DNA of 64,000 nt. Source: Erythrobacter sp. GTDB taxonomy: Bacteria; Pseudomonadota; Alphaproteobacteria; Sphingomonadales; Sphingomonadaceae. Shown here piece by piece: positions 15,394 through 24,861 of this stretch. The stretch lies in NCBI GenBank assembly GCA_009993605.1, contig JAACTB010000007.1:62001-126000 (forward strand). Reading direction: 5' to 3'. Position 1 is the first letter of the stretch, and each line of letters opens with the position of its first letter. Both the position numbers and the translations under genes were made by a program. The notes beneath the pieces were generated by a model. That model ran no database searches. It was not told the DNA's origin and saw only the letters and a program-made list of their open reading frames with translations.

Positions 15394-16179
15394 ATGCTGC
15401 TCGCCGTGGATGTCGGCAACACCAATATCGTTTTCGCCTTGTTTGAAGGGACGGATATCAAGACCCGCTGGCGCATCGCCACCGATGCGCGGAGGACAGG
15501 CGACGAATACGCCGTCTGGCTGCTCCAGCTGCTTGCGATCGAAGGGTATGGCAAACAGGACGTGTCGGCGATCATCATTGGATCGGTGGTCCCTCGCGCG
15601 ATCCATAATCTGACGGTGCTGGCGCAGAAATATTTCGGGGTCGAGCCGCTGATCGCGGGACAGGGCAGGGCGGAATACGGGTTTCATGCCGATATCGAAC
15701 AACCGAGTTCGCTCGGCGCCGACCGCGCGCTCAACACCATCGCCGCTCATGCCAAATATGGCGGCGATCTGGTGGTGATCGATTTCGGCACCGCGACAAC
15801 TTTCGATGCGGTCGATTTCAACGGCGCCTACAAAGGCGGGATCATCGCGCCGGGCATTAATCTGTCGCTCGATGCGTTGGTCGGGAACACGGCGAAGCTG
15901 CCACGCATTGCTATCGAGAAGCCGCGCATGAACAGCGTTATTGGCCGCAACACCGAAGATCAGATGCTGATCGGAGTGTTCTGGGGCTATGTCGCGATGA
16001 TGGAGGGGCTGGTCTCCCGCATCAAGGCCGAAATCGGACGCCCGGCAAAGACGGTCGCGACCGGTGGATTGGCCTTGTTGTTCGACGAACACACCGACCT
16101 GTTCGATGCGGTGGACAGCGATCTGACTCTGGAAGGCCTGGCTATATTGGCCGAACGCGCGCGCGATCGCGCGACTTGA
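15394..16179 (+). CDS. coaX: type III pantothenate kinase
   Basis: [19 protein letters not shown]...[12 protein letters not shown]...[13 protein letters not shown]...[15 protein letters not shown]. Confidence 0.96.
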
Positions 16180-16190
16180 AAAGAGGTATT

Positions 16191-17843
16191 GTGAAGAAAA
16201 ATTACGCGCCCGAAGACGAACTGCTTTTCCTGTCCCTGGGCGGCTCTGGCGAGATCGGCATGAACGTCAATCTCTATGGCTGCCAGGGGCGCTGGATCAT
16301 GGTCGATCTGGGGATGACCTTTTCCGGCGATCAATATCCCGGCATCGACCTGGTCTTCGCCGACCTCGAATTTATCGAAGATCGCCTCGACAGCCTCGAA
16401 GCGCTGGTGATCACCCATGGGCACGAGGATCACATCGGCGCGATCCCCTATTTCGCCGCCGATCTCGGCGTCCCGATCTATGCCACCCCCTTCACCGCCG
16501 AACTCGTGCGCCGCAAATTGCAGGAAGCCGGGATCGCCGACCAGATCGAGCTGCATGTGATCGAAGACGATCATGGCGAATTCTCGATCGGACCGTTCGA
16601 TCTGACCTATCTCCCGCTGGCCCACTCGATCGCGGAAGGTAACGCCCTGTTGATCGAGACGCCCCATGGGCGCGTCTTCCACACCGGCGACTGGAAGCTG
16701 GACGAAGATCCGATCATCGGGGAACCGACCACCGAAGAAGAGCTGCGCGCGATCGGGGACGAAGGGGTGCTGGCGCTGGTGTGCGACAGCACCAATGTCT
16801 TCAATCCGAACCCCAGCGGATCGGAAGGCGCGGTCCATCGCGGGTTGATGGAGGAGATCAAGCGGCATGAGGGGAAGCGCGTGCTCGTCACCACCTTCGC
16901 CAGCAATGTCGCGCGCCTGCACACGCTTGGCGAGGTCGCGCGCGAAAGCGGGCGGCAGATTTGTGTCGCCGGGCGCTCGCTTGACCGGATTATCGCGGTG
17001 GCGCAGGACAATGGCTATCTGCTCGACTTTCCCGAGCCGGTCGATTTCGACACCGCCATGGGCCTGCCGCGTGGCGAGGTGCTGATCGTGGCGACCGGCG
17101 GGCAGGGCGAGCCACGCGCTGCCCTCTCACGCATATCGGAGGAAAACCATCCGCTGGAATTGACCCACGGCGACGTGGTGCTCTTTTCCAGCCGCCAGAT
17201 TCCGGGCAACGAGATCGCCATCGGCGCGGTGCAGAACCGCTTGGCCGAACGCGGCATCGTGATGATCACCGACCGTCAGAGCGAGATCCACGTCTCCGGC
17301 CATCCCGGCCGCCCCGAATTGGAGGCGCTGTATTCCTGGCTCCGGCCCGAAGTGCTTGTGCCGGTGCATGGCGAGATGCGCCATCTGCTCGAACAGGGAC
17401 GCTTTGGCGAGGAATGCGGCATTCCGCACTCCGTCATTCAGAAGAGTGGCGAAATCGTGCGTCTGGCGCCGGGTGCCCCGGGCAAGATCGCCGATGTCCA
17501 TGCAGGGCGCCTGGTGCTGGACGGCGACATCATTTCTCCCGCCGATGGCGAGGCGGTCGTCATGCGCCGTCGCCTGTCTCGCGATGGCGTCATGTTCGTG
17601 GTGCTGGACAACGAGCTTCGCGCGCGAATCGAGACGCTCGGACTGCCGCTGGACGAGGATCAGGACGAGTTCCTGGCGGAAGCGTGTGCCGATATCGACA
17701 AGGCGATCGGACGCCTCAAGGGCAAGGATCGCGGCGATCCGGGTGCGATCCACGAGGCGGCCCGTCTCGCGGCCCGCCGCGCGGCACAGCGCTGGTCAGG
17801 CAAGCGCCCGCAGGTCCGCATCATGATGCCGAACAAGCGATAG
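16191..17843 (+). CDS. rnj: ribonuclease J family MBL/beta-CASP nuclease (alternative TTG start at 16176)
   Basis: GTG preceded by AAAGAGG; ELLFLSLGGSGEIGMNVNLYG...ITHGHEDHIGAIPY...VHGEMRHL. Confidence 0.93.
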   Translation: MKKNYAPEDELLFLSLGGSGEIGMNVNLYGCQGRWIMVDLGMTFSGDQYPGIDLVFADLEFIEDRLDSLEALVITHGHEDHIGAIPYFAADLGVPIYATPFTAELVRRKLQEAGIADQIELHVIEDDHGEFSIGPFDLTYLPLAHSIAEGNALLIETPHGRVFHTGDWKLDEDPIIGEPTTEEELRAIGDEGVLALVCDSTNVFNPNPSGSEGAVHRGLMEEIKRHEGKRVLVTTFASNVARLHTLGEVARESGRQICVAGRSLDRIIAVAQDNGYLLDFPEPVDFDTAMGLPRGEVLIVATGGQGEPRAALSRISEENHPLELTHGDVVLFSSRQIPGNEIAIGAVQNRLAERGIVMITDRQSEIHVSGHPGRPELEALYSWLRPEVLVPVHGEMRHLLEQGRFGEECGIPHSVIQKSGEIVRLAPGAPGKIADVHAGRLVLDGDIISPADGEAVVMRRRLSRDGVMFVVLDNELRARIETLGLPLDEDQDEFLAEACADIDKAIGRLKGKDRGDPGAIHEAARLAARRAAQRWSGKRPQVRIMMPNKR

Positions 17844-17855
17844 GAAGGTTTTCCC

Positions 17856-18131
17856 ATGCATTGGACCTCGATCCTGGCGATCTATGTCCTGTTCTGGGTG
17901 ATGAGCGCGTTCGTGCTCCTGCCGTTCGGCGTGCGCACGCATGATGAGATGGGGATCGACAAGGTGCCGGGGCAGGCGGACAGCGCGCCTGCCAATTTCC
18001 GTCCCCGGCGGCTGCTGGTCAGGGCCACTCTGCTCGCCGCGGTGCTGACCGCGCTTTATGTGCTCAACTACATTTACGGTTGGGTAGGGTACGAGCAGCT
18101 CGACCTGTTCAACCGCGCACCGTCCTACTGA
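17856..18131 (+). CDS. DUF1467 family membrane protein
   Basis: MHWTSILAIYVLFWVMSAFVLLPFGVRTHDEMG...GQADSAPANFRPRRLLVRAT. Confidence 0.85.
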   Translation: MHWTSILAIYVLFWVMSAFVLLPFGVRTHDEMGIDKVPGQADSAPANFRPRRLLVRATLLAAVLTALYVLNYIYGWVGYEQLDLFNRAPSY

Positions 18132-18141
18132 GCGATCGGGT

Positions 18142-20763
18142 TTACTCGCGCAGTCTCTCGATCGCCTGCGCGAGAGTGACGTAGAGCTTGCCGATATCGG
18201 AACTCAGCACGGTAACGCCCAAAGCGTGGCCATCGCGGGTCGAGAGCAGCATGCGTAGCATCGCTTCGAAATCGTGGATGTAGCGGCTGACATGCTCGCG
18301 GAAATCCGGCTCGCGATCGTAAAGCTCGGCGATTTCGCGCGCCTGTGTGTTGTCGAGCAGGCGCACGACCCGGCGCGTGAAGATCCCTCTGTCGCCGCGT
18401 AGATACGACGTCCAAGCCGTGTCGGTCACCTCGGTCGACAGGGCTTTACCGATATCGATGGCGTTCGAATTGAGGCTTTCGGTGATGAGCGCGACGCGGC
18501 GCGAGAAATCGTTGTCGACCTGCTCTTCCGCCCGTTCGCGCGCGCGGGCGATGCGCGATTCGAGATTGCCGGCCAGTTCGTTCACCTTGACGAGCTGATC
18601 GCGCAATTGCGTCGCCGCGGCGTGGCTCGCCTCGCTCGCGCGCGTGCCAGCTTCGTCAAGCGATCCGATCGCCGCCTTCGTCCGCTCTTCCAGCGCCTCA
18701 TCGATGGCCTTGGCACTGGCATCGCCGATGCGTCCGGCGAGCGCTTGGATCCGGTCAGCCTGCGTATCCTCGATCCCCGCAAACGCGTCTGCGGCCTCGG
18801 TCTGCAGTTTCGCGATGGCAGCGCTCAATTCTTCGCGCGCCTGCGTTGCGATCCGGGCATTGTCGCCCTCGATCCGTTCGAGCTTTTCGGTAAGCGCGTC
18901 GAGAGCGGCGGCCTGATCTTCGATCGTACCTGACAAGCCTTCGCTGAAAGCGTCCAGCGCCGCTGTCGCCTCGCGGCTGCGATGTTCGGCATTGGCCACC
19001 GTTTCGCCCAATTCGCTCCCGCTCCGATCCGCGTCGGCGAGGGAAGCGTGCAATCTCTCGGCGCGGCTCTCGAGGTCGGCAAGCGTGCCCGCGAAGGCTT
19101 CGATCGCACGGGGAAGGTCTTCCTCGCTATGCGCCGCGCTCGCCTTGATGAGTTCGAGCAGGCGGACGGAGCGGTCGGTTAGATCGCCGACCCTGTCCCC
19201 GGTCCCATCGAGGGAAGCCCGGCTCTCCGCGAGGGTTTCCGTCAAGCGCGCCACGGCTGCCGCAAGAGTCTGTTCGGCTTCGCCACCCTGTCGCGCAGCC
19301 TCGGCGGCTTGGCGAGCAAGCGCATCGATCCGCTCACCGGCCGCATCGCTTCGCTCGCTCAGCGTATCCAAATGATCGAGGTGCCCCGCGCGCTGTTCCG
19401 CAAGGTGGCTGTCGAAAGAGGCGATCCGTCCGGCAAGCGCCTGCAACGCCTCGTACTCGAAAGCGCTGACCTGCGTACGGCGCTGCGCGACCTGTTCATG
19501 ATAGGCGCGGTTGCGCTCGTCCATCAGCGTGTCGATGGCTTCGGCTTCCGCCACCAACTCGCGCAGTTTCGCTTGCGAATTTTCGAGGGATAGCGTGTCG
19601 ATCCGCGTGACTTCCTCGATGATGGAAACCAGCCTGGTGCGCAGCGCCTCGATCTGGCCTGACCACGCGGCGAGTGCAGCCTGTTCGCCTTCGCGCACGG
19701 TCTGTGCCGTCAACGCCGCGTCCTCGTTCAGCCTTGCGATACGTTCCGAAAGAACCGCATAGGATGCGTCCGCATCGGTCTCGCGCGCTTCGGCGAGCTG
19801 GGCGCATTCTTCCTTCAAGGCTTCCGCGCGGCTGTGGATGGCGGCGAGCGCCGCAACCTCTTGCGTATCGATCGTCTCGCGAAGGCGGTCGCTGTTCTCG
19901 CGGATGGTGGCGAAGCGGGCCGTCGCGGCGCCTTCGATCTGATCCAGGCGCTCTCCCATTTCGTCGAGCAGCGATCCGAGCCGGTCGCCCACCGATCCGA
20001 CCTGACGCTCGCTGGCTGTGCCGAAGGTGTTCAATCGTTCGAAACCGGCAATTAGGTCGTCGAGCTGTTCGCTGGCGGTCTGGCCTGCGCCTGCGATCCG
20101 GTTCGTCACATCGCGCGCCGAATTGGCGATGACGGGGAGATCGCCGCGCAGCTTTTCCATATTTTCCAAAGCCGTCGTACTGACCCCTGCGATGGCGTCG
20201 ACCTGATCACCGTTTTCGCGAACGAGCGCTTGTAGGCGGTCGGCGTGAGTCGACAGCCGTTCGGTCGCCGTGCGACCGAGATAATCGAGATCGCGGTTCT
20301 GATCGGCGATGAATTCGCGCGCAAGGCTGAGCTCGCGATTCACCGCCAGCAGCCGCTCCTCCAGTCGCTCCGATTCGAGCGAGAGCAACCGGGCCGCATC
20401 TCCGAACCGGCCCGCTTCGCGTACCGAGAGGCGCATCGTCAGGAGCCAGACCGTGAGGATCAGGAGAACCGGGACCGCCCATGCGGTGACCCATCCGACC
20501 CATTGCTCCGCCGTTCCGCCAGCCAGCATCTGCGCGCGGTAACTCCAGGCGAAGAAGCCCGTCCAACCGATGATGGCACACGCGAACAGGACGGGGAAAA
20601 TCCAGCCTTTCGAGCGGTTTGGGGTAGGTTCCTCCACCCATTCGAATTCTTCGACGGAATCTTCGTCCTCGGCCGGAAGAGCGATGTCCGCATCTTCCAG
20701 CCCAACCGACTGGTCTTCCTGCGATTCGTCGTGCCCTACGGCGCGAATGTGGTCCCTGCTCAT
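18142..20763 (-). CDS. very large coiled-coil protein with two N-terminal TM segments and a conserved-looking C-terminal domain; function unknown
   Basis: 873 aa; acidic N-terminus, TM segments (WIFPVLFACAIIGWTGFFAWSY; WVTAWAVPVLLILTVWLL), then long A/E/R/L-rich heptad-like region and terminal SSDIGKLYVTLAQAIERLRE. Confidence 0.85.
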   Translation of the reverse strand: MSRDHIRAVGHDESQEDQSVGLEDADIALPAEDEDSVEEFEWVEEPTPNRSKGWIFPVLFACAIIGWTGFFAWSYRAQMLAGGTAEQWVGWVTAWAVPVLLILTVWLLTMRLSVREAGRFGDAARLLSLESERLEERLLAVNRELSLAREFIADQNRDLDYLGRTATERLSTHADRLQALVRENGDQVDAIAGVSTTALENMEKLRGDLPVIANSARDVTNRIAGAGQTASEQLDDLIAGFERLNTFGTASERQVGSVGDRLGSLLDEMGERLDQIEGAATARFATIRENSDRLRETIDTQEVAALAAIHSRAEALKEECAQLAEARETDADASYAVLSERIARLNEDAALTAQTVREGEQAALAAWSGQIEALRTRLVSIIEEVTRIDTLSLENSQAKLRELVAEAEAIDTLMDERNRAYHEQVAQRRTQVSAFEYEALQALAGRIASFDSHLAEQRAGHLDHLDTLSERSDAAGERIDALARQAAEAARQGGEAEQTLAAAVARLTETLAESRASLDGTGDRVGDLTDRSVRLLELIKASAAHSEEDLPRAIEAFAGTLADLESRAERLHASLADADRSGSELGETVANAEHRSREATAALDAFSEGLSGTIEDQAAALDALTEKLERIEGDNARIATQAREELSAAIAKLQTEAADAFAGIEDTQADRIQALAGRIGDASAKAIDEALEERTKAAIGSLDEAGTRASEASHAAATQLRDQLVKVNELAGNLESRIARARERAEEQVDNDFSRRVALITESLNSNAIDIGKALSTEVTDTAWTSYLRGDRGIFTRRVVRLLDNTQAREIAELYDREPDFREHVSRYIHDFEAMLRMLLSTRDGHALGVTVLSSDIGKLYVTLAQAIERLRE

Positions 20764-20831
20764 TCAGCGAGCGTATCACGATTCCCCGATCCTTAAACCC
20801 CGCATTAACCGCGACGACCTAAGCCGATCGC

Positions 20832-21143
20832 ATGGCGTTCCATCCCGGCCCCTTCGATCACGCGCTTGCCGCCGCCGCTGGCGACGATCGCGCTCTGGAA
20901 GCGCAATTGCGCACGGGGTTCGTCGAAAGCGTCGAACGTCAGCTCGATCTCATGCAGCGCGCCCGCTGCGACGCGAATTGGCGTCTCGCGGCACAGCATC
21001 TTCACGCGGTCGCCGCCGGTTTCCATGCCGAAGAGATCATGCACCTCGCCGACGAGGCAGCACAGGGCGCCCCCGGCGATCCCGCCGCCCTTCGCAAGAT
21101 CGCCGATATTGTGGACGCCATCCGCAATCCGCGAGACGATTAG
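20832..21143 (+). CDS. Hpt-domain-like protein (phosphoacceptor histidine apparently displaced/absent)
   Basis: 103 aa; CDANWRLAAQHLHAVAAGFHAEEIMHLADEAA aligns by eye to the Hpt core (AHxLKGxAxxxGAxxL). Confidence 0.65.
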   Translation: MAFHPGPFDHALAAAAGDDRALEAQLRTGFVESVERQLDLMQRARCDANWRLAAQHLHAVAAGFHAEEIMHLADEAAQGAPGDPAALRKIADIVDAIRNPRDD

Positions 21144-21229
21144 ACCTATCTGACGCGATCAGATTTTGGCAATTCGCGCGCACATGGCTAGGCGTCGAGG
21201 ACATCGATCGCCGACCGAGGACCAATTTC

Positions 21230-22423
21230 TTGCGTATCGCCTTGCTGACAGCGCTGGCCGAAGAACCCGGACGGGGCTCGCGCAAGGCGGCATTCCGCCC
21301 CTTCGTCGGGCGAAGCGTTCTGTCGCATCAGATCGACTGCGCCCGCGCGCTGGATTGCGACATGGTGCTGTGCATGATCCGCGGGCTCGGCCCGGAAGCG
21401 ATCGTATGCCAGCATCGCGCCGAAAGCCTCGGTATGCGGTTTCGTGCCATCGAAGATCTTCGCCGCCTTTCGGGCGCGGTCAGTGCGGATGATCGCATAG
21501 TCGTCATCGCCGATGGTCTCGCGTTGGATATCGAGACCGCCCAGGCCGCGATCGGCGAGAAACCGGGGATCGCGACCTTTCCAGCGGATGTGGCCGTCCC
21601 GCTCGGCTTCGAACGGATCGATGCCGAAAGGGCCTGGGCCGGTCTCCTGACGATCCGCGGCGATGCGGTGGAGAGATTGTCGGACCTTCCTCCCGATGCC
21701 GACGCGGCCTCGTCCCTGCTCAGGATAGCGCTCCAGTCGGGGGTCCGCACCACGCCCCTCGACCTCGGTTCGATCGAGGACATGGCCGCGATCGGCCCGG
21801 AAGACGATGGCTCTCTTTCGGCGCGGGAGGGCCGCTGGATCGCCCGGCGGGCCCAGCCGGTTTCATTCGCGGCGCCGGGGCGCGCGCTGGCCGAACGGAT
21901 CGGAATAAGACTGGCTCGGGACGTCGTCGGGTCGCGGTTCGAGCGTGTTCCTCTGATTATCGCCGTGGCCGCCGGAGTGCTCGCGGCAATATTGGCTTTG
22001 TTCGGCAAACCGCTGACAGGGCTTCTGATTTCGGGGCTGATGGCAGCCGCGCTGCCGATCGCGGATGTCGTGCTCAGATTGGCGCGGCCGCCGGGAAGAG
22101 AGCCACGGGTGTGGCACGCCACCTCGCTTCTGGCGGGGGCGGGCGACGTTCTCCTGATCGGGTTGATCGCCATGGCTGGCCGCACGACGGGGACGTGGAT
22201 CGACCTGTTCCTGCCGCTGATGCTGATGGGTCTGCTGCGGATCGGGTCTCGCATCGCGCCGACCGGCGTCCGCCCGCTCCTGTCGGACAGGATCGCCTTG
22301 CTTGCGATACTGGTCCCGGCGGGATATCTCGGGATCCTCCAGCCGGTGGTCGCAGCGCTGGCGGTTCTTGTCTTGCTTGCGATTTTCCGCGCGACCCACG
22401 CCGACCGGCTAACGGCGCCTTAA
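21230..22423 (+). CDS. membrane protein with N-terminal nucleotidyltransferase (GT-A)-like region; function unknown
   Basis: TTG start (approximate); LRIALLTALAEEPGRGSRKAAFRPFVGRSVLSHQIDCARAL..., C-terminal half with several TM segments. Confidence 0.6.
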   Translation: MRIALLTALAEEPGRGSRKAAFRPFVGRSVLSHQIDCARALDCDMVLCMIRGLGPEAIVCQHRAESLGMRFRAIEDLRRLSGAVSADDRIVVIADGLALDIETAQAAIGEKPGIATFPADVAVPLGFERIDAERAWAGLLTIRGDAVERLSDLPPDADAASSLLRIALQSGVRTTPLDLGSIEDMAAIGPEDDGSLSAREGRWIARRAQPVSFAAPGRALAERIGIRLARDVVGSRFERVPLIIAVAAGVLAAILALFGKPLTGLLISGLMAAALPIADVVLRLARPPGREPRVWHATSLLAGAGDVLLIGLIAMAGRTTGTWIDLFLPLMLMGLLRIGSRIAPTGVRPLLSDRIALLAILVPAGYLGILQPVVAALAVLVLLAIFRATHADRLTAP

Positions 22424-22447
22424 CCACGCGATGCTACGCGAGAGCGC

Positions 22448-23434
22448 ATGATCGAGCCGACAACCGGGCCTTCCTTTTCAGCAACTCCCCGCGCCGATCC
22501 GCAATGGCCGGAGGGCGAGGCTTTGCGTTCGGCGCTGACCCAGGGCGATCAGGCGCTTGGCCGGATCGGGCCCATTCTCGGCCATCTCCTCTCGACCCGC
22601 GACCAGTCGCTTTTCAGTGACGAATTGGTGGCGCGCATCAGGAGCATGTTGACGCATCTGGCCTGGCAGATCCTGCGCATCCAGGCCGAGGCGACGGGCG
22701 TCAAGGGCCGCGAGGAATTCGCCGCTGCGCATGGCGAGGCCTTGTCGGAGCAGCTTTTCGATACGCCTTCCCTGGTGGCGCATTGCCACGCCCTGGCTCT
22801 CGAATGGCAGCTGACCGCCCGGCTCGAAGCCGGTCATGGGCTCGACCCGGTGATTTCGCCGCTTTTGCAAACCCTGATCGGGAACGAGGATGCTGGCATC
22901 GCCAGTGCGGCGATGGCGTCTCTCGCGGCCCAGGCCCGCTTCGCGCAGAGCCAAAGGCGGATGCAGCTGCCGCTGGGCGAATTGCCGGGCGATCTGTTCC
23001 ACGCTCTGCTGCTGGCTTGGCGCGGCTACAATGGCGAGGACGCGTCGGATGCGCTTGTGCGCGCCGAAGGGCGCCTTCGTGCCGATTACGACGAGGCGAC
23101 GGGGCGGCTATCTCTACTGGAGCGAGTCGTGACTTTGTTCGGCAAGGACGGGGCGCAGGCGCTGACCTTCGATCAAGCGGGCGTTGCGCTCTTCCTGTCC
23201 GCTCTCGCGCTCAGGACCGGGCAACCGCGCGATATCGTCGCCGTGTCCCTGCACGACAGCCAGATGGCGCGGCTCGCTGTCGGGCTGAGGGCTGCGGGCC
23301 TCAAGCCGCAGGATATCGAGGCGCAGATCCTGCGTCTCCACCCCGACCGCGACCCTCCCGAAGGCCTTGCCGATATCGGCACTCGCGAGGCGCTCAATCT
23401 GCTCGCCCGCAGCACGGGCTGGGCGGGAGACTAA
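22448..23434 (+). CDS. conserved hypothetical protein, possibly DUF2336-like (helical)
   Basis: 328-aa ORF, alpha-helical, ends just before histidine kinase gene; no clear catalytic motif. Confidence 0.6.
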   Translation: MIEPTTGPSFSATPRADPQWPEGEALRSALTQGDQALGRIGPILGHLLSTRDQSLFSDELVARIRSMLTHLAWQILRIQAEATGVKGREEFAAAHGEALSEQLFDTPSLVAHCHALALEWQLTARLEAGHGLDPVISPLLQTLIGNEDAGIASAAMASLAAQARFAQSQRRMQLPLGELPGDLFHALLLAWRGYNGEDASDALVRAEGRLRADYDEATGRLSLLERVVTLFGKDGAQALTFDQAGVALFLSALALRTGQPRDIVAVSLHDSQMARLAVGLRAAGLKPQDIEAQILRLHPDRDPPEGLADIGTREALNLLARSTGWAGD

Positions 23435-23436
23435 CG

Positions 23437-24861
23437 ATGGCGACGATCGGAACCAAATTCATCGCCCGCGCAATCGTCGATGCGGACGGGATGCTGACGG
23501 AAGCGGAAGAGCCGCTGGCGAGCTTGCAGGTGGAATGTGGCGGGCGGATCGGCGGTCCGGTGGCCGTGCCGGAACTGCGCGCGCTGGTCGAAAAGGCGCA
23601 GCGTTTCGGGCTGCGCCTCGCGCGCCAGTTTTGCGCGGTCGACGGCCAGGATCGTATCACCGCCTGGATCGAGATCGAGCCGCTGAACGGGCCCGACGGT
23701 TCGCCGCAAGGCTGCGAGCTGGGTCTGGTCTCCTGGCATTCGGAGGAATTGCCGCCGGAGGACGAGCTGGAGGCCGCAAGGCGGCGCGCCGAATTGAGCC
23801 GCAACCTTGCCGATCTCACCGCGCGGCTCGATCCGTCGCAGCGGGTTCTTTCGGTCGCGGTCGAAGCGCCCGACCTCACCCGCCTCCAGATCGCGATGGA
23901 GGGCGGGGTGGGGCGCCCATGGACCGATTTCGTGACCTTTCCCGGCAATCTTCACGAACAGCCCCTCCATTGGCGGCTGCTCGATGGTGCCGAATGCCTG
24001 ATCGAGGGATCGAAAAGGCGCTGGACCGCCCATCTCGAGCCCTTGGGCCAGCCCGAGCTGGGCAGTGCAGGCTTCGTCCTCCATCTCCTCGCGGATCGCC
24101 CGCTGGGTGCCGGCGCACTCGACGATGCGAGCGATCCGGGATCGGAACCGCCCTCGCTCGGCCGCGACCTGTCGCCTGTCCTGCGCCAGCCGATCAACCG
24201 CATCATCGCCAATGCGGAGACCATCCGCACGAAGCTCGCCGGGCCGCTAGCCGAGGAATACAGCGATTATGCCGCGGATATCGCGGCGGCCGGTCAGCAT
24301 CTGCTAGCGCTGATCGACGATCTTTCGGATCTCGAGATCGTGGAATCCGAAGATTTCGTCACCGCGCCCGACCGGATCGATCTCGGCAATGTCGCGCGCC
24401 AGGCCTGCGGCATCCTCGGCGTGCGGGCGCGCGAAAAGGGCATCGAATTGAGCGCGCCGCCCAATGGCGAGAGCCAGCTGGCCATCGCGGAATTCCGCCG
24501 CGTGTTGCAGGTGCTGATCAACCTCATCAACAACGCCATCCGCTATTCGCCGGAGGGCAGCCAGATATGGGTCCGGCTCGACCGGATCGGCCAGCGGGCG
24601 ATGGTCACCGTGGCCGATCAGGGACACGGGATCGACGAGGAGCAGCAGGCGCGCATTTTCGAAAAGTTCGAACGGCTCGGCCGCAGCGGCGACGGGGGCT
24701 CGGGGCTGGGCCTCTATATCTCGCGCCGGATCGCGCGGGCGATGGACGGCGATCTGACCGTCGAAAGCGCCAAGGGGCAGGGCGCCCGCTTCACGCTGTC
24801 CGTCCCGGCGGCGGAGGATCTGCGCAGCGAACCACGAGACGGGCCGAAGGTCGACAAATAA
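23437..24861 (+). CDS. sensor histidine kinase-like protein with intact HATPase_c but H-box His replaced by Pro
   Basis: LINLINNAIRYSPEGS (N), VADQGHGID (G1), IFEKFERLG (F), GSGLGLYISRRIARAMDG (G2); DHp reads DLSPVLRQPINRIIANAE instead of SHELRTPLN. Confidence 0.88.
   Translation: MATIGTKFIARAIVDADGMLTEAEEPLASLQVECGGRIGGPVAVPELRALVEKAQRFGLRLARQFCAVDGQDRITAWIEIEPLNGPDGSPQGCELGLVSWHSEELPPEDELEAARRRAELSRNLADLTARLDPSQRVLSVAVEAPDLTRLQIAMEGGVGRPWTDFVTFPGNLHEQPLHWRLLDGAECLIEGSKRRWTAHLEPLGQPELGSAGFVLHLLADRPLGAGALDDASDPGSEPPSLGRDLSPVLRQPINRIIANAETIRTKLAGPLAEEYSDYAADIAAAGQHLLALIDDLSDLEIVESEDFVTAPDRIDLGNVARQACGILGVRAREKGIELSAPPNGESQLAIAEFRRVLQVLINLINNAIRYSPEGSQIWVRLDRIGQRAMVTVADQGHGIDEEQQARIFEKFERLGRSGDGGSGLGLYISRRIARAMDGDLTVESAKGQGARFTLSVPAAEDLRSEPRDGPKVDK

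Follow-up and report, generated by a model that had tools for sequence, protein, structure and literature searches.

A candidate phosphorelay island lacking both phospho-histidines beside an RgsE-type scaffold gene in Erythrobacter and other Sphingomonadaceae

Described systems and the Erythrobacter locus

DivL of Caulobacter is a pseudo-histidine kinase that works at the cell pole without kinase activity (PMC4211667), and AHP6 of Arabidopsis is an Hpt protein without an acceptor histidine that inhibits cytokinin signaling (PMC3572949). We compare these proteins here with the products of a five-gene island in a 64,000-nucleotide stretch of Erythrobacter sp. DNA (GenBank assembly GCA_009993605.1, contig JAACTB010000007.1, positions 62,001 to 126,000; hereafter "the window"). 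His-less kinases such as DivL and His-less Hpts such as AHP6 are each known singly; in this island, judging from sequence comparison, both relay steps appear to have been silenced together, and we found no report of such a joint occurrence in open-access text. Like DivL, the window kinase is a DHp-CA kinase in which the phospho-histidine is replaced, by Pro rather than Tyr, and 4q20 is one among many kinase matches. DivL keeps its H box apart from the Tyr, whereas the window-type kinase has lost the H-box acid as well and its partner gene encodes a His-less Hpt. The window Hpt lacks the acceptor histidine as AHP6 does; AHP6, however, is a plant protein and the window Hpt is bacterial and adjoins a pseudo-kinase and a scaffold. 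RcsD and the ChrS-type His-less or inactive transmitters (PMC3842833, PMC9491836) are also kinase-like without a working transmitter, as here, and the accessible parts of those reports mention no His-less Hpt encoded alongside them in the same island.

The third point of comparison is RgsE, a 2089-aa protein (PMC7327166) and homolog of Agrobacterium GPR, which shapes the growing cell poles in rhizobia (PMC7327166, PMC8262873). Both RgsE (PMC7327166) and GPR (PMC8262873) resemble the scaffold of the island in having two N-terminal transmembrane (TM) helices and an apolipoprotein-like helical body, and RgsE further shares its C-terminal domain and a divergent Hpt neighbor, as seen in the RgsE sequence and locus. 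The differences are that the Hpt beside rgsE has its histidine, and that the window scaffold is only 873 aa long, stands beside a His-less Hpt and is accompanied by three extra genes. The accessible parts of the reports on these polar growth factors name no phosphorelay partner, and our search of open-access text found no paper on the loci adjoining rgsE or gpr, including the Hpt gene beside rgsE.

The kinase and the Hpt-like protein

The two proteins and their critical positions are as follows (window coordinates).

23437 to 24861, plus strand: pseudo-histidine kinase, 474 aa, from its HATPase_c and HisKA matches
24175 to 24177, plus strand: codon of P247, at the H-box histidine position
24496 to 24813, plus strand: HATPase_c domain, in which the N, G1 and G2 residues are conserved
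20832 to 21143, plus strand: pseudo-Hpt, 103 aa, divergent from the scaffold, from its AlphaFold2 (AF2) fold and histidine-bearing homologs in sister families
20994 to 20996, plus strand: CAG codon of Q55, at the Hpt phospho-histidine position

The window kinase matches HATPase_c (E 2.8e-29) and, partially, HisKA (E 1e-7) in Pfam. P247 stands where an active HisKA-type kinase has the phospho-histidine of its H box, and the histidine is gone in 73 of 74 aligned orthologs (His in L098 only), where P, A, R, Q, K, E, D, S and other residues replace it. Position 248, the site of the H-box acid, is V or A in 68 of these 74 sequences and D or E in none, and L249, R250 and P252 are largely retained. 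The ATP-site residues N366, D394, G396, G421, G423 and G425 are invariant in all 74, so that the N, G1 and G2 features are intact. (The "-" states of the kinase in our character table are profile-alignment gaps; the actual residues were taken from the sequence alignment.) Six genomes of the family Sphingomonadaceae encode a PAS kinase that is linked to DUF2336 and has the canonical box MSHELRTPL. Such histidine-bearing kinases and those of the window type form a group apart from 14 other kinases (branch support by the Shimodaira-Hasegawa-like approximate likelihood ratio test, SH-aLRT, 98.6). We considered those of L101-L104, L107 and L108 as possible paralogs and rejected this; their DUF2336 linkage, the adjacency to gltA in L101 and L108, and the kinase tree mark them as orthologs. 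Their survival in the same family allows a direct comparison with the silenced pair.

The Hpt-like protein of the window has Q55 at the phospho-site and thus lacks the histidine of the HxxKG motif of Hpt (PF01627). A Pfam scan gave it no match, PF01627 (gathering score 24.6) included; its relatives in the early-branching genome G087 and in Sinorhizobium meliloti score 36.6 and 37.1 bits. The AF2 model has a mean predicted local distance difference test score (pLDDT) of 93.9, and the PDB structures that it matches best in fold are Hpt domains (3myf, probability 1.00, TM-score 0.61, though E is only 0.086). The model confidently predicts a pseudo-Hpt with the four-helix Hpt-type fold. Throughout the family the surrounding (R)LKGLAASF is kept, and Q, M, L, W, S and others replace the histidine. 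Among 55 genomes whose kinase is His-less, 54 also have a His-less Hpt (a truncated copy in one of them), and a His-less Hpt is likewise seen in 20 of 20 further genomes. The histidine is present in all four family genomes that have a histidine-bearing kinase and an identifiable Hpt, and in G005, which has no kinase. In all 14 sister-family genomes checked a histidine-bearing Hpt lies divergently beside the scaffold, and the other three island genes are absent from the locus. An earlier note made from the window sequence alone had suggested that both proteins lost their acceptor histidine; both losses are now seen family-wide, and the crown-group orthologs of kinase and Hpt generally lack both histidines.

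Timing of the losses and selection

The reference tree was built from the scaffold C-terminus, GltA and RNase J, with Hpt and kinase left out; all trees are quick searches. This independent tree requires one change for the kinase histidine and two for the Hpt histidine (the second in G036). Both losses are placed where one crown of 81 genomes begins (branch SH-aLRT 99), with earlier-branching orthologs keeping both residues, so the joint loss proposed in the earlier note is supported. The loss in Hpt could have come one node after that, because G018, which branches first within the crown, has a kinase without the histidine, and no Hpt was detected in it. Hpt and kinase states are concordant in all but one family genome (Fisher p 1.1e-6, the related genomes not being independent), and kinase and Hpt presence or absence on independent pairs reached no significance, the pairs being too few.

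Pairwise ratios of nonsynonymous to synonymous substitution (dN/dS) in close pairs are 0.04-0.12 for hpt and 0.06-0.26 for the kinase gene, against 0.05-0.16 for rnj and gltA and a higher 0.19-0.50 for the membrane protein gene, with some of the dS values saturated. Simple decay is disfavored because the hpt and kinase values are low, near those of rnj and gltA.

The scaffold and its Hpt neighbor

18142 to 20763, minus strand: two-TM coiled-coil scaffold of RgsE type, 873 aa, from its hydrophobic segments and C-terminal domain
18145 to 18531, minus strand: conserved all-helical C-terminal domain of the scaffold, 129 aa, from the family alignment and AF2
20434 to 20604, minus strand: two predicted N-terminal TM segments of the scaffold, from a Kyte-Doolittle scan

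The hydrophobic segments span residues 54-72 and 92-110 (Kyte-Doolittle), and the protein is weakly similar to Apolipoprotein (PF01442, E 6.4e-7, below the cut-off). With two N-terminal TM segments followed by a long helical body, it has the layout reported for RgsE and GPR (PMC8262873, PMC7327166). The C-terminal domain is predicted to be all-helical (AF2 pLDDT 87); it has no convincing fold match in PDB and, in the window protein, no match in Pfam. It is found in 129 of 337 genomes of the class Alphaproteobacteria, once each save two exceptions, where it ends large open frames; across the class it closes large coiled-coil membrane proteins. Residues 1971-2088 of RgsE match the domain alignment with 92.6 bits, the 2089-aa S. 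meliloti coding sequence being taken as RgsE because its length equals that in PMC7327166. This common architecture and C-terminal domain indicate that the scaffold is of the RgsE type. The two-TM coiled-coil layout would also suit a TipN-like protein; the sequence comparison made was with RgsE. A 2121-aa scaffold of G333 was considered as Agrobacterium GPR and dropped, since it belongs to a Rhodospirillaceae genome.

An Hpt gene with the motif EAHRLKG flanks S. meliloti rgsE divergently, and Shinella is alike. At six of 40 other class loci a stand-alone histidine-bearing Hpt lies within 1.2 kb of the scaffold start, and at a seventh a hybrid kinase with an Hpt lies beside it; these 40 loci gave no further Hpt match. 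Divergent pairs of Hpt and such a scaffold occur in several alphaproteobacterial families, and their Hpt normally has its histidine. The Hpt adjoining the scaffold predates the other island genes. The earlier note was right in calling the protein a membrane coiled-coil scaffold, and had missed both its kinship to RgsE and this older pairing, which makes the Hpt a concrete regulator candidate for the polar growth factors. The histidine-intact S. meliloti gene divergent from rgsE lies at L281:4733-5101 (CP090106.1); this 3.72-Mb record is titled pSymB, yet it is chromosome-sized and has the rgsE and cytochrome c1 genes, and it may be mislabelled.

The membrane protein, the DUF2336 protein and the lost inositol pathway

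21230 to 22423, plus strand: membrane protein derived from a CDP-inositol-type phosphotransferase, catalytic motif lost; probable TTG start
22448 to 23434, plus strand: diverged DUF2336-like helical protein, from a sub-threshold PF10098 match

The window membrane protein has no Pfam match. The profile of its family matches the CDP-alcohol phosphotransferase half of 4mnd (IPCT-DIPPS; E 2.3e-9), and the early-branching copies match PF01066 and keep DGVDGKLAR, which is present in G087, G018, G003, G032 and G040. The catalytic motif of PF01066 (DGxxAR) is missing from 75 of 85 of these proteins, including that of the window, when searched as DGxxA[RK], a loose pattern whose matches beyond these five genomes look like chance. 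The "GT-A/membrane" protein of the earlier note is better described as a diverged CDP-alcohol phosphotransferase relative, a relationship not seen there. The note's "helical hypothetical" can be refined to a diverged DUF2336 protein (PF10098, E 4e-5 and 23.6 bits, under the gathering score of 34.6), early-branching orthologs of which match the model at E 2e-52 and 4e-63 (178.6 and 213.7 bits). We found no paper on DUF2336 in open-access text.

The locus of G087 (L347) runs gltA, kinase, DUF2336, three further genes, membrane protein, Hpt, scaffold, DUF1467, rnj. In the islands of G087 and G018 lie genes for a Wzi protein, for an inositol-phosphate synthase of INO1 type and for an NTP transferase, which among named entries matches the IPCT half of NF041135 best. 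The bifunctional inositol enzyme IPCT-DIPPS (NF041135, PDB 4mnd) compares with two of the early-branching genes, its CDP-alcohol half being matched by the membrane protein and its cytidylyltransferase half by a neighboring gene; the window copy, by contrast, has lost the CDP-alcohol motif, and its island no longer holds the partner enzymes. The membrane gene is a remnant of an inositol-phosphate pathway. The histidine loss is not a simple consequence of the loss of that pathway, because G018 has INO1 and Wzi together with a His-less kinase. The INO1, cytidylyltransferase-like and Wzi genes lie at L347:5946-9235 in G087 and L352:5589-8918 in G018, and could belong to an inositol-based envelope pathway.

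Conservation of the island and its interpretation

As the earlier note had it, five contiguous genes lie between DUF1467 and gltA, the scaffold gene (minus strand) being divergent from four co-directional genes (plus strand); all five open reading frames were confirmed, and no response regulator gene is found inside the island. The neighborhood is conserved as well, and neither of the two outcomes that the earlier note would have taken as a refutation was observed. With the histidine losses family-wide too, the arrangement goes beyond chance. The order rnj-DUF1467-<scaffold-hpt-gta-DUF2336-kinase-<gltA recurs in most of the 80 family genomes examined, and the scaffold was detected in 29 of 31 family genomes checked. 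In G044, G046 and G093 the scaffold-hpt block is separated from the gta-DUF2336-kinase block. Twelve family genomes (L353-L362, L364, L365) have scaffold and membrane protein, with Hpt, DUF2336 and kinase not found in the fetched stretch.

We lean, if only slightly, towards the view that the island was once a phosphorelay and is now a docking module that does not phosphorylate and is attached to an RgsE-type polar scaffold. The sequences show that early-branching family members have histidine-bearing versions of the Hpt and of the DUF2336-PAS-kinase; one genome has them at the window's locus, together with the inositol-phosphate genes. At the base of the crown kinase and Hpt both lost the phospho-histidine, and the kinase its H-box acid also. 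The genes nevertheless stay under purifying selection, as do the Hpt fold and, in the kinase, the ATP site and the residues of the DHp scaffold. In such a module the pseudo-kinase would change conformation on binding ATP and dock the pseudo-Hpt, which would engage the polar scaffold; the signal would be passed by ATP-dependent binding instead of phosphate, and the membrane and DUF2336 proteins may have been co-opted as membrane and adaptor parts. Protein-protein regulation in place of phosphate flow is compatible with the sequence data. We would offer more tentatively the fuller proposal that, on approximately one branch, a complete kinase-Hpt pair became a phosphate-free, ATP-dependent docking switch in control of an RgsE-type polar scaffold in Sphingomonadaceae, and that the pairing of Hpt and scaffold is a regulatory partnership widespread in Alphaproteobacteria and so far undescribed.

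Several observations weigh against the docking-module reading. For 20 genomes that have a His-less kinase the locus yielded no Hpt, which means that the pseudo-kinase is not always in need of it, and kinase, DUF2336 and Hpt are all absent from the fetched stretch in 15 family genomes; the five-gene module is thus not strictly obligate. Whether an Hpt is scored as present depends on the profiles used and on the parts of the genome that were fetched; at least three of the kinase-bearing genomes with no Hpt at the locus carry one elsewhere. In G036 (L092) a histidine-bearing Hpt (AAHRLQG) lies next to a kinase with Val at the histidine position, by reversion or retention. The Foldseek E-values for the Hpt model are weak (E 0.086). 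Finally, each histidine loss is approximately one event, which puts correlated evolution beyond statistical proof.

Other explanations deserve comparison. The pseudo-Hpt could sequester receivers like AHP6, and/or the pseudo-kinase could read a phosphorylated response regulator like DivL, which binds DivK~P with Tyr for His, on behalf of a phosphorelay encoded elsewhere. The inhibition exerted by AHP6 without an acceptor histidine is a precedent, and the conserved motif around the lost Hpt histidine is the usual receiver-docking face. We nevertheless think this rather unlikely, as the constant neighbor is a scaffold and not a response regulator, the island has no regulator gene, and the kinase H box is more eroded than that of DivL. 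The scaffold-hpt pair and the gta-DUF2336-kinase block might instead be functionally separate neighbors. That they lie apart in three genomes and that sister families have scaffold and hpt only would agree with this, which we judge improbable since most genomes of the family have the two blocks side by side and the tree puts both histidine losses at the same place.

Were the island a decaying relic, its genes would persist by inertia after loss of the inositol-phosphate pathway and shed catalytic residues randomly. The fast divergence of the membrane protein and the widespread loss of its CDP-alcohol motif fit such a history, as does the joint absence of kinase, DUF2336 and Hpt from several genomes. 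The invariant ATP site, the hpt dN/dS of about 0.04-0.12, and the loss of the G018 kinase histidine while INO1 and Wzi remain speak against it, and make it quite improbable. There is, in our estimate, only a slim chance that phosphate still flows via another residue, such as a displaced histidine. H288, which lies in the second helix of the DHp domain, does not vary among the aligned kinases, and histidines 56 and 58 of the window Hpt adjoin Q55; however, H288 is also present in a histidine-bearing relative (GRHLL, L101) and so looks structural, histidines 56 and 58 are not conserved and were rejected as a displaced acceptor, and the H-box acid is lost too.

Flanking genes and an INO1-like paralog

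16176 to 18131, plus strand: rnj (ribonuclease J) and DUF1467, left flank, also seen in L283
24941 to 26227, minus strand: gltA (citrate synthase), right flank, also seen in L283

L283 is the locus of Sphingomonas parapaucimobilis, which has the same gene order. The possibility that the window genome has an intact inositol cluster elsewhere was rejected, in that it has only a distant INO1-like paralog, and the other queried genes are all absent from its vicinity. This paralog, at G000:C1:481581-481898, is 25% identical to the island-type enzyme.

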